From contig NZ_JAFVMH010000006.1 of the NCBI RefSeq assembly GCF_017377735.1, forward strand, positions 62,001 through 126,000: DNA of 64,000 nt. Reading direction: 5' to 3'. The position numbers and the translations under genes are program-made. Source of the stretch: Acetobacter garciniae. Its GTDB lineage: Bacteria; Pseudomonadota; Alphaproteobacteria; Acetobacterales; Acetobacteraceae. Below are positions 29,345 to 32,913 of this stretch, one piece after another. The notes beneath the pieces were generated by a model, which was not told the origin of the DNA, searched no databases, and worked only from the letters and a program-made list of their open reading frames with translations. Every line of letters begins with the position of its first letter. Positions within the stretch are counted from its first letter, which is position 1.

Positions 29345-29482
29345 TCAGCCCTGAAGCAGGGTCAGGCCGAACATGATGGTCGCCAGCAGGCCCATGAACA
29401 CCAGCATGCCGCGCACGCGCTGGCGTTGGCGCCGTTGCCGTTCAAGCTGTTCGGACAAAGCCATATCAAGCACCTGGGTCAT
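29345..29482 (-). CDS. 45-residue single-span membrane protein (CoxF-like position)
   Basis: A 45-residue frame that begins MTQVLDMALSEQLERQRRQR and ends in a hydrophobic stretch (about 25-43, MLVFMGLLATIMFGLTLLQG). It starts 3 bases past the ctaB stop, so it is co-transcribed. A charged, Arg/Gln-rich N-terminus before one C-terminal membrane span resembles the short CoxF-like proteins encoded beside ctaB in alphaproteobacterial cytochrome oxidase operons; the similarity is in position, size and topology, and sequence homology is not proven. It has no cysteine or histidine, so it is not a copper chaperone. Confidence 0.65.
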   Translation of the reverse strand: MTQVLDMALSEQLERQRRQRQRVRGMLVFMGLLATIMFGLTLLQG

Positions 29483-29484
29483 AC

Positions 29485-30444
29485 TCAGTTCATCCATAAC
29501 CGCAACATGTGATCGGCCAGAAGACCGCAGAACAGAAAGAACAGATAGGCCAGCGAAAAGCGGAAGGAAATCCGCGCCGCCTTGTCGCCCTTCTGGCTTG
29601 TGCCCCGATCGTCCTGGGGTTCGAGCAGCACACGCACCGCACAGGCCACGAAACCCAGCCCCAGAACAAGGGCCGTGGCCGTATAAAGCCAGCCGCTGAG
29701 ATGCATGAAGGAGGGGATCAGCGAAACTGCCAGCAACACCAGCGTGTAGATGAAAATCTGCCAGCGTGTGTGGCGCTCACCCCGCACCACGGGCAGCATG
29801 GGAATACCCGCGCGACCGTAATCCTTGCAGGCATAAAGCGAGAGCGACCAGAAATGCGGTGGTGTCCAGAAAAAGACGATCCCGAACATGACCACGGGCA
29901 TGACCGCCATATGGCCGGTTGCCGCGGCCCAGCCGATCATGGGCGGGAAAGCACCCGCCGCGCCACCGATCACGATGTTCTGCGGGGTCGAGCGCTTGAG
30001 CCACATCGTATAGATGACGGAATAAAAGAAAATCGAGAACGCCAGGATACCGGCCGCCAGCGCGTTGGTCGCAATCCACATCAGGCAGACGGACAGGGTG
30101 GAAAGGCCGATGCCGTAAGCCAGGGCCTCATCCGCCGGGATACGCCCTGCGGGGATCGGCCTGGTGATGGTACGCTGCATGATGGCGTCGATATCGCGGT
30201 CGTACCACATGTTGATGGCACCGGCAGCACCTGACGCCAGACAAATGCAGAAGATACTGACCACTGCCACAAACGGGTTGATATGCCCCGGCGCCATGGC
30301 CATGCCCGCAGCGCCGGTAAACACCACCAGCGAAATCACGCGGGGTTTGAGAAGTGCCAGCCAGTCGCGCGCCGTAGTGCCCACCTGCGCGCTGTTGAAA
30401 CGCGGCCGCCGGGTGGTGGCGGGGGCTGCCATGCTCTCGCTCAT
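29485..30444 (-). CDS. ctaB: Protohaem IX farnesyltransferase (haem O synthase)
   Basis: 319 residues with about nine hydrophobic spans. CtaB/CyoE transfers a farnesyl group to haem B, giving haem O for haem-copper oxidases such as cytochrome bo3. The prenyl-diphosphate-binding motif NMWYDRDID (N78, D82, D86) is intact, followed by RTITRPIPAG, and the second conserved loop SLYACKDYGRAGIPMLP is also present. Its ATG overlaps the stop of the oxidase-subunit-I-like gene by four bases, so the two are translationally coupled. The acetic acid bacterial cytochrome bo3 quinol oxidase would need its product. Confidence 0.96.
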   Translation of the reverse strand: MSESMAAPATTRRPRFNSAQVGTTARDWLALLKPRVISLVVFTGAAGMAMAPGHINPFVAVVSIFCICLASGAAGAINMWYDRDIDAIMQRTITRPIPAGRIPADEALAYGIGLSTLSVCLMWIATNALAAGILAFSIFFYSVIYTMWLKRSTPQNIVIGGAAGAFPPMIGWAAATGHMAVMPVVMFGIVFFWTPPHFWSLSLYACKDYGRAGIPMLPVVRGERHTRWQIFIYTLVLLAVSLIPSFMHLSGWLYTATALVLGLGFVACAVRVLLEPQDDRGTSQKGDKAARISFRFSLAYLFFLFCGLLADHMLRLWMN

Positions 30445-31745
30445 CGGGCAGGCTCCTCAGCATTCGCGCCACGGGGCGCAGGCGCGGGCACCACACTGGC
30501 GGCGGGCACATTGCGCCCGAAACTGGCCCCGGCGGTCAGCACGAAGCACAGGGCAGACAGGCCGAACAGCGCGCCGCTGAGCACCTGCTGGCCGGGCATG
30601 AACACCAGCGCCGTCGCGGCGGCTGTCAGGCCGAAATGCAGTAGCGCCAGCGCCTGAGGGTACCAGAAGCCGCATTCCTCCCCCCGCCACAGGTAGAACC
30701 CGCCGCAGACCGCATAAAGTGCGCCAAGTTGCAGGGCCGAATGCAGCCCCGTGCCATCAACGACCTGTGCGACCCAACCCACCGACACGACAGCCAGAAA
30801 GCCCAGCCCCCACAGCAGGGGAGTACGCAGTGCCACGCGGGATTTCCACGTGCCTGCAAGCCACAGACCCGCCAGGCAGACGGCGGACAGGGAACACAGG
30901 GCCAGGACGACACCGCCGACCCATACGGCACTTGTGCGCTCGGCCCCCTGGACGAATTCGGTCTTGACCCAGGCCACAACGCCCGTCGCGGCCGTGGCGG
31001 CCATGATGATGGCCACCGGACGTTCGGAAAAACGGGCGAAACGGGCACTCATTTCAAATACGATGCCAAAGCCCGCCAGCAGAATGACAAGGCTGACCGG
31101 TCCTGCGAAACTTTCCGCCATCACGGGCTGGGTCAGGGAAGGCCAGATCCATCCGCGCACCACCTGGCCTGCCAGGACCGGCACGCTCAGCAGCAGCACC
31201 GCGGCGGCCAGCATTTCCCCCCACACGAAAGGCGAGAAAGCCCTGCGGGCAATACTGTCGGCACGGCTGTCGAAAACCGTGGCCAGAAGCGCCATGCAGG
31301 TGGACAGCGTGCCAGCACACCACAGCAGAATCGCAACACCGGCACCGGTAGCATGCGCACTGGCACCCTGCCCCGCATTCACCACGGTCAACAGCGCCGC
31401 GCAGACGACAAGCCCCAGCCCCGCACCGTTGAACCCGCGTGCGAGCATGCGGCTGCGCGCCAGCGCACGAGGCAGCCAGAGCGTGCCAAAACCGCCGACA
31501 AGGGCCGGGATCGCCACATAAAGCAGCATAAGGGCCGGATGGGCCTGTTCGATCCGGGCACCCAGGGAACCCGCAGGCAGCAGCCCCAGCCCGTTCGCTA
31601 CGGAAAGACCGCCACCGCACAGACCCGCCAGGGCCGCCAGCAGTACATAGGCCGCACCCATTGTGGTATCGACCCTGTCAGTCGTCACCACATGGCGGTG
31701 GGTATGTGAACGATCCTGTGGGCTCTGCGTCTGAGCGGAGATCAT
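30441..31745 (-). CDS. Degenerate cytochrome oxidase subunit I homologue lacking metal ligands
   Basis: 434 residues from the ATG at 31745, which has GGAG eight bases upstream; the open frame extends to 31811. About 12 hydrophobic spans follow the subunit I pattern. TTDRVDTTMGAAYVL (21-35) matches the TTDHK start; AHPALMLLYVAIPALVGGFG (68-87) matches THG...PALIGGFGN and keeps H69; PFVWGEMLAAAVLLLSVPVLAG (172-193 region) matches span VI; LRTPLLWGLGFLAVVSVGWV matches span IX. But HPEVY reads GPVSL (215-219), the HH pair reads KT (261-262), and the segment with the haem a3 and second haem a histidines is deleted near 335-342. It cannot be an active oxidase. It is coupled to ctaB. Confidence 0.8.
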   Translation of the reverse strand: MISAQTQSPQDRSHTHRHVVTTDRVDTTMGAAYVLLAALAGLCGGGLSVANGLGLLPAGSLGARIEQAHPALMLLYVAIPALVGGFGTLWLPRALARSRMLARGFNGAGLGLVVCAALLTVVNAGQGASAHATGAGVAILLWCAGTLSTCMALLATVFDSRADSIARRAFSPFVWGEMLAAAVLLLSVPVLAGQVVRGWIWPSLTQPVMAESFAGPVSLVILLAGFGIVFEMSARFARFSERPVAIIMAATAATGVVAWVKTEFVQGAERTSAVWVGGVVLALCSLSAVCLAGLWLAGTWKSRVALRTPLLWGLGFLAVVSVGWVAQVVDGTGLHSALQLGALYAVCGGFYLWRGEECGFWYPQALALLHFGLTAAATALVFMPGQQVLSGALFGLSALCFVLTAGASFGRNVPAASVVPAPAPRGANAEEPAR

Positions 31746-31906
31746 GCTCCAACTTCCATTTTCTGTGCGGGCAACTGCCCCGGCGGGGCTATCGGCATGC
31801 CGACCCACCAAGGTTTGATCGGGGCAGTCTACCCGTTTTCAACGACAAGAACGAGCCGTTCAGCCACGCGTGACAAACGCCCCTGCCTTGGCGGGAGCGC
31901 ACGCAT

Positions 31907-32671
31907 TCAGCCCACAAGAACGCCGGACGGGCTCGGGGCCTTGGCGGAAACGCCCACCCCCTGCGGCTGGGCGGGTTCTTCGGGCAGGTTTTCAAGCGTG
32001 ACCAGCGTGAAAAGCCCCAAAGGCGGCACAGGCTGGATATAGGCGCGCGCCAGGTCAGCAGGCGGCAGCAGGGATTCCATGGCAAAATCGGGGTGCCAGC
32101 CCAGCGAGCGGGACGCCCGGGCCATGCCGTGCTCGACCATGCTGCGCACGCCGCCCGATGCCAGAAAATGGTTTACAAACAGGATATACCCGCCCGGGCG
32201 CACCACGCGCTTGAGTTCGCGCAGCAGCTTCCTGGGGTGGGGCACCACGGATGCGACGAACATGGCAACCGCGATATCGAAGGAATTATCCGCGAACTGC
32301 GTGTCTTCCGCGTCCATTTCCAGCAGGTCCTTGACCGTGCGCAGGCCCTGGCGCTGCACGCGTTCGCGGGCCTTGGCCAGCATGTCGCTCGACAGGTCGA
32401 TCCCGGTAATGACCTTGGAGGCATTGTAATGCGGCAGGGCAAGTCCCGTGCCCACGCCGACTTCAAGCACGTCCGACCCCGGCAGGCCGTTGACGGCCTC
32501 GACCGCGCGCAGGCGGCCAAAACGCGAGACACCGCCAAAAGCCACGTCATACACGTTGGCCCAGCGGCGATACGCCAGCTTGACGGCTTCCGTATCCAGC
32601 GCCGAACGTGACGGAGGCGGAACGGGCGCTTCCCCCCGGCCCGAGGGGTAATCGTGGAGAATATCGCTCAT
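31907..32671 (-). CDS. pmtA: Phosphatidylethanolamine N-methyltransferase (PmtA type)
   Basis: 254 residues from the ATG at 32671. It is a class I SAM-dependent methyltransferase of the Rhodobacter PmtA kind, which methylates phosphatidylethanolamine stepwise to phosphatidylcholine at the membrane. YRRWANVYDVAFG (35-47) is the typical N-terminal element. The SAM motif LEVGVGTG is at 69-76. MDAEDTQFADNSFDIAVAMFVASVVPHP follows in two conserved pieces. The C-terminal 25 residues are Pro/Ala rich and look unordered. No membrane span is seen. It is alone between gshB and the oxidase relic, and other methyltransferase substrates cannot be excluded. Confidence 0.85.
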   Translation of the reverse strand: MSDILHDYPSGRGEAPVPPPSRSALDTEAVKLAYRRWANVYDVAFGGVSRFGRLRAVEAVNGLPGSDVLEVGVGTGLALPHYNASKVITGIDLSSDMLAKARERVQRQGLRTVKDLLEMDAEDTQFADNSFDIAVAMFVASVVPHPRKLLRELKRVVRPGGYILFVNHFLASGGVRSMVEHGMARASRSLGWHPDFAMESLLPPADLARAYIQPVPPLGLFTLVTLENLPEEPAQPQGVGVSAKAPSPSGVLVG

Positions 32672-32913
32672 TGTTTCTCTCTGCCCGCTTGGCGGCATTT
32701 CTTCAAGAGGCACCACACGTCTTCCTTCCCTCTATGCGGTCCCGCTTGCGGCTTGTGCCGCCACGAAAGCGCCTTTGTGCCAAAGCATGCAGGCCTGCCA
32801 AAGGTTGCGACCCGCGCATTCGCATGACCCCGCAGCGCCATGCCGCGGCTTTGCCCAGCCTGCCCCGGCGTGGACAGGACACGCCCTGCCCCCGCGCTGC
32901 ACAGGCATCGGAA

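Follow-up and report, generated by a model that had tools for sequence, protein, structure and literature searches.

The gene directly preceding ctaB in the analyzed window (the whole stretch of 64,000 nucleotides from Acetobacter garciniae) encodes a homologue of haem-copper oxidase subunit I that has lost its oxygen-reducing site and kept the histidine pair of the low-spin haem. Its protein, here called COX1-like, may be a COX1-derived, one-haem membrane cytochrome with bis-histidine ligation that acts together with CtaB and probably holds haem O or B, a reading to which we give about even chances. That the protein binds a haem at all we consider quite probable.

RESULTS AND DISCUSSION

An intact COX1-like gene overlaps ctaB

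The genes and the overlap discussed below are as follows.

29345..29497, minus strand: 50-aa open reading frame (ORF) that overlaps the end of ctaB and has a single hydrophobic stretch; relatives stand after ctaB in Acetobacter loci
29485..30444, minus strand: ctaB, haem O synthase, 319 aa (NCBIfam NF003349, E 8e-101; TIGR01473, E 1e-98)
30441..30444, minus strand: ATGA overlap of the COX1-like stop and the ctaB start, read in the sequence
30441..31745, minus strand: COX1-like gene, 434 aa (open frame; Pfam COX1, E 1.4e-14; 1ar1, E 1e-18)
31907..32716, minus strand: upstream neighbor, methyltransferase (PmtA/UbiE-like; NF045882, E 2.4e-43, 148 bits, below the cut-off of 390)

From 30441 to 31745, the minus strand is open for 434 codons plus a stop, and the plus-strand reading has stops; the intact frame without frameshift described in an earlier note on this DNA was thus found, on the minus strand. 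The start is the ATG at 31745, with a TTG at 31811 as a possible alternative. The same note took the frame for a relative of haem-copper oxidase subunit I, and the profile search, in which the absence of any COX1 relation would have counted against this, bears it out: the match to Pfam COX1 (PF00115) reached 54.2 bits against a curated cut-off of 34.8, and the best solved relative found by phmmer was Paracoccus denitrificans COX1 (1ar1). These two matches rule out chance similarity, and on such sequence comparison the protein is a homologue of subunit I, far beyond chance. In the protein set A1, 39 of 39 members matched PF00115 at an E value of ≤0.01. The NCBIfam models of CtaD, CyoB, and QoxB gave weak matches, far under their cut-offs. 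Two motifs had been misread, since the protein has TTDRV and PALVGGFG where TTDHK and PALIGGFG were reported.

The host genome (locus L002, G000:C34:207949-209277), an Acetobacter whose nearest named relatives are Acetobacter species, also encodes a full-ligand CyoB. Besides CyoB, it has a full-ligand 577-aa CtaD/COX1-type protein, although acetous taxa are described in excerpts of PMC10715153 as having lost the main cytochrome oxidase, with an A2-type COX mentioned in some.

The low-spin haem ligands are kept and the oxygen-reducing site is lost

The codons of four residues that prove invariant in the comparison below are placed as follows.

30741..30743, minus strand: H335, counterpart of Paracoccus H413 (low-spin haem ligand, helix X; phmmer alignment; 115/115 orthologues; 0 tree changes)
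30969..30971, minus strand: W259, the Trp that precedes the lost CuB His pair by two residues (115/115)
31221..31223, minus strand: W175 (115/115)
31539..31541, minus strand: H69, counterpart of Paracoccus H94 (low-spin haem ligand, helix II; phmmer alignment; 115/115 orthologues; 0 tree changes)

The phmmer alignment to 1ar1 pairs H69 with H94, G333 with H411, and H335 with H413, and H335 is the counterpart of H413 also in a MAFFT alignment made via the COX1 proteins of the family. Paracoccus H94 and H413 we take to be the axial ligands of low-spin haem a; the assignments attached to H276, H325, H326, H411, Y280, and K354, as well as to the bovine residue numbers used below, are likewise assumed. 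In excerpts of PMC8361435, subunit I is defined by six conserved histidines for two haems and CuB, given without numbers. Two of these six metal-binding histidines, H69 and H335, are kept in the COX1-like protein, and both are present in 115 of 115 distinct orthologues, so that, as judged by alignment alone, two axial histidines lie on facing helices at the H94 and H413 positions. The remaining ligand positions hold their original residue in few COX1-like proteins or none (H276, 0/115; H325, 37/115; H326, 2/115; H411, 2/115). The cross-link tyrosine Y280 occurs in 0/115, and the K-channel lysine K354, which is leucine in the A. garciniae protein, also in 0/115. By these alignments, the protein keeps the low-spin haem pair and has neither the ligands of haem a3 and CuB nor the cross-linking Tyr280.

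Several particulars of the earlier note can be judged from this pattern. GPVSL does stand where oxidases have HPEVY, and KT does replace the CuB histidine pair. H69, named as the single kept histidine, is indeed kept, but so is H335, aligned with Paracoccus H413. The deletion noted near the haem a3 histidine is real, but it takes the loop between helices IX and X (the H403/D404 region) and not the ligand site, where G333 has taken the place of H411, the haem a3 ligand, and H413, two residues on, survives as H335. The description "ligand-stripped" must be given up, both low-spin haem ligands being present in every distinct orthologue.

The histidine pair is invariant in a fast-evolving protein

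Relatives were gathered as 22 loci from named genome contigs plus loci from other genomes of the same GTDB family. Of 176 loci scanned, six were dropped (L003 and L063, the same gene as L004; L052 and L122, the frame-broken copy of A. papayae; L168 and L173, fragments), leaving 170, of which 139 differ in their last 350 residues: 115 COX1-like proteins and 24 with all four active-site histidines. L140, at first called mixed (it also has H325 and H411), is counted among the 115. The matches were fetched out of a longer set, and the distinct COX1-like orthologues therefore number at least 115; they span 20 GTDB genera of one family (genera counted by hand from genus codes). In a quick tree search with some long branches, the COX1-like proteins form one side of a branch with an SH-aLRT of 100.

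Pairs among the 115 have a median identity of 26% (lowest, 16%), and no column is invariant besides the four of H69, H335, W175, and W259. A tree of 68 thinned COX1-like sequences carries 54.6 changes per column overall; among its 365 columns, the median number required is 23, and the H69 and H335 columns require 0. The six lost active-site positions (H276, E278, Y280, H325, H326, and H411) require 17 to 33, and the frequency of change at lost ligand positions is close to that of the median column.

Two longer COX1-like proteins, L155 (G071, 520 aa) and L157 (G013, 479 aa), lie on long branches and are possibly early stages of erosion. Fifteen genomes of one GTDB genus (L107 to L121; G295, G375, G387, G397 to G399, G401, G408 to G410, G419, and G421 to G424) encode a strongly diverged COX1-like protein scoring about 200 to 245 bits, versus roughly 320 to 570 for other intact ones, with both histidines kept.

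The gene occurs in 47 of the 49 genomes of the genus (rows counted by hand), in one of them in frame-broken form. For the class, 240 alphaproteobacterial genomes were searched with A1 at an E value of ≤1e-60, and 78 matched; among the matches listed, frames of ≤500 aa came from G000, G040, and G122, of the own family, and from G660 (388 aa, at a contig end). The shallow sample and strict cut-off leave room for COX1-like relatives outside the family.

The protein is under purifying selection

The ratio dN/dS was computed by NG86 for Acetobacter pairs, the 70 most similar of 187 that passed a k-mer filter, several of which repeat one species (two genomes of one species). The median was 0.10 and the maximum 0.20 for the COX1-like gene, and 0.025 and 0.07, respectively, for ctaB. 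The COX1-like protein is under purifying selection, and the earlier suggestion of new selection rather than decay, which neutral ratios or disrupted orthologues in close relatives were to speak against, is supported by the median of 0.10 together with orthologues in 20 genera. No pair came near neutrality. One disrupted copy was seen, in the A. papayae draft (L052/L122), where the gene lies in three frame pieces that also hold both histidines. The nearby TldD gene is frame-broken too, and the break is therefore likely a sequencing error.

This copy, together with the fast evolution of the protein, is what would speak for a decaying, functionless relic still intact through recency. The gene is open, however, in 115 distinct sequences from 20 genera, the dN/dS of about 0.1 contradicts decay, and the only broken copy adjoins another broken gene. 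Decay was rejected on dN/dS and conservation, and we hold it to be exceedingly improbable.

Loops on the periplasmic face are stripped and the haem pocket is remodeled

With helix borders following those of the bovine structure and the twelve helices aligned, not predicted, mean periplasmic loop length falls from 85.8 residues in 16 full-ligand proteins of <600 aa to 26.1 in the 115 COX1-like proteins. On the same borders, mean cytoplasmic loop length is kept (41.0 versus 41.3 residues), and helix length is hardly altered (336 versus 320). The shortened loops are presumably those with the subunit II docking face, the haem-propionate Trp and Arg, and the H403 region. Erosion has been selective, sparing the low-spin haem ligands together with the cytoplasmic loops, on the side where CtaB would act.

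Around the haem site, the Arg pair that meets the propionates (bovine R438/R439) is missing from 115/115 COX1-like proteins and W126 from 114/115, and R38, which we take to be the residue binding the haem A formyl, is kept in 8/115. The haem pocket is remodeled in view of these losses; the residues checked have mostly drifted, M65 (kept in 100/115) excepted. Such drift would suit a purely structural stabilizer of CtaB that carries no haem and keeps its histidines for folding or packing. A CtaB-stabilizing role is the guess published in PMC10715153, as far as its excerpts go, and the COX1-like gene adjoins ctaB in 115/115 cases. We nevertheless consider this explanation unlikely, since the histidines that are invariant, with two other columns, correspond to a pair that in the homologues face each other across the low-spin haem, and packing alone does not predict this pair.

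Gene order is ancestral and the overlap with ctaB is enriched

The ATGA coupling with ctaB described in the earlier note can be read directly in the sequence as a stop-start overlap. Overlaps of 4 bases (NTGA) in which a frame of ≥180 aa (ctaB-length) opens were found for 92 of the 115 COX1-like genes and for 4 of the 24 full-ligand genes; ctaB lies downstream of 14 of these 24. In 115/115 COX1-like loci, a ctaB match begins ≤102 bases from the COX1-like stop, and a methyltransferase match ends ≤272 bases from the COX1-like start, both on the same strand. In a COX operon, the subunit II gene presumably stands directly upstream of subunit I; here, that place is held by the methyltransferase throughout. 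An apparent COX1-like/CtaB fusion in G042 was discarded: the 751-aa frame is a COX1-like frame open far upstream, and ctaB starts after its stop. In excerpts of PMC5158111, ctaB and ctaD are listed with neighboring locus tags and as conserved among three complete genomes of A. pasteurianus.

Three haem O synthase matches occur in the host genome, of which only the adjoining ctaB is over the family cut-off and two are below it. The 50-aa ORF at 29345..29497, which gave no Pfam match over cut-off and no NCBIfam match, sits where a small RRRGRN-type ORF follows ctaB in true COX operons, a likeness by position and look only, and could be another remnant of the lost operon.

The overlap bears on two further explanations. 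In one, the frame acts only in cis, as a translated leader driving ctaB translation, and its protein is dispensable. The ATGA overlap would be expected of such a leader, but dN/dS values of ≤0.20 in 70 pairs and the invariant His and Trp residues indicate selection on the protein, and two genomes (G001 and G053) have ctaB without the COX1-like gene; we regard this explanation as very improbable. In the other, the protein is a low-spin membrane cytochrome acting on its own, in electron transfer or in redox or haem sensing, and its place beside ctaB is only inherited. Bis-His low-spin haems are commonly electron carriers, and the gene order is ancestral, given the 14 full-ligand genes followed by ctaB. 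Yet most of the periplasmic face for electron delivery by subunit II has been stripped, no new partner gene was seen adjoining the COX1-like gene, and the 4-base overlap is commoner than in full-ligand genes, so that this explanation is distinctly unlikely in our view.

ctaB occurs with and without the COX1-like gene

Among 26 chosen genomes tested for ctaB, 17 had it over the cut-off, nine with the COX1-like gene and eight without a COX1-like match. In G001 and G053, ctaB directly follows the methyltransferase with nothing between, and CyoB-length oxidases are encoded elsewhere; these loci (L195 and L188, respectively) are natural deletions of the COX1-like gene for comparison. Because of such genomes, it can be said that ctaB and a quinol oxidase can do without the COX1-like gene, and its retention in other genomes therefore needs a reason of its own. 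G179 also has ctaB over the cut-off and no COX1-like match. In G007, G031, G064, and G094, ctaG-/COX3-like frames (recognized by eye) or COX1 pieces stand beside ctaB, an arrangement resembling that of true COX operons, some of them truncated where contigs end, and G077 has a 598-aa PF00115 protein near ctaB and no COX1-like match; these five genomes have or may have a true COX.

Absence was joint in other cases. G210 and G425 (1.5 to 1.7 Mb), the two of the 49 genomes that lack the gene, are also without a PF00115 match and without ctaB over the cut-off; in G070 and G034 (82% complete), the COX1-like gene, PF00115 matches, and ctaB over the cut-off are missing together. G029, G116, and G066 have only a PF00115 protein of 785 to 833 aa, no ctaB over the cut-off, and no COX1-like gene.

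CtaA, the haem A synthase, was tested in 26 genomes, 24 of which bear the COX1-like gene, and was absent from 13 of these 24. Haem A is therefore ruled out as a general ligand, and haem O or B remains.

A possible role beside CtaB and comparison with known systems

Under the preferred reading, of a one-haem cytochrome working with CtaB, the ancestor would be ctaD, for the catalytic subunit in an A1-type cytochrome c oxidase operon that has since been lost; the gene has stayed in its place before ctaB. Evolution would have removed the O2-reducing site (the haem a3 and CuB ligands, the Tyr cross-link, and the K-channel Lys) as well as the greater part of the periplasmic surface on which subunit II docks. 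The bis-histidine low-spin haem site would have been retained, along with the helix segments and the cytoplasmic loops. One low-spin haem, O or B, would be bound between helices II and X. Made together with CtaB by translational coupling, the protein would serve as its partner, holding the haem that CtaB produces for the bo3 quinol oxidase (CyoB). It would also organize CtaB, by analogy with yeast; excerpts of PMC7140478 report that Cox10 seems to need newly synthesized Cox1 in order to form multimers, and they put the active site of Cox10 on the matrix side. A haem-handling or assembly protein, as the earlier note proposed, fits these observations, because the low-spin haem site is what was kept. 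Against a partnership with CtaB stands the fast evolution of the protein (median identity, 26%), unusual for a tight partner of the slow CtaB.

A bolder version, which we put forward as rather doubtful, is that these proteins are a new class of the haem-copper fold, one-haem bis-His proteins that act in acetic acid bacteria as dedicated haem O acceptors or carriers from CtaB to the bo3 oxidase. If true, the carrier would be a missing step of haem O hand-over; the path of haem O from synthase to oxidase is called poorly understood, for mitochondria, in excerpts of PMC7140478. In any case, the locus is a natural experiment, in which a lineage losing the main cytochrome c oxidase operon kept its core subunit, overlapping the haem O synthase gene and with the low-spin ligands preserved.

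As a haem-handling partner near haem O/A synthesis, the COX1-like protein would resemble Surf1 and the CtaA-CtaB complexes, proposed haem handlers in excerpts of PMC9145763 and PMC7140478. As far as family scans show, it is not homologous to these. With A1-type cytochrome c oxidase subunit I (CtaD, COX1, PF00115), it shares homologous helix segments, the H94 and H413 counterparts, and its position before ctaB as in the COX operon. Unlike that subunit, it is without the haem a3/CuB ligand set, Tyr280, K354, and most of the periplasmic loop length, and its gene follows a methyltransferase instead of subunit II. A subunit I annotation in these genomes thus does not mean that a cytochrome c oxidase is present, and a gene listed in excerpts of PMC5158111 as the cytochrome c oxidase subunit ctaD becomes a testable haem protein.

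A known counterpart is the Acetobacter protein called "deranged COX1-like" (Matsutani 2014), encoded next to ctaB. Excerpts of PMC10715153 describe it as without all conserved metal-binding residues and guess that it stabilizes CtaB. It is the same gene in the same place, with the same idea of serving CtaB. No statement on a retained haem pair was found in the limited library searched. In contrast to the published description, which is hereby corrected as far as those excerpts represent it, both low-spin haem ligands are present in 115 of 115 orthologues across 20 GTDB genera.
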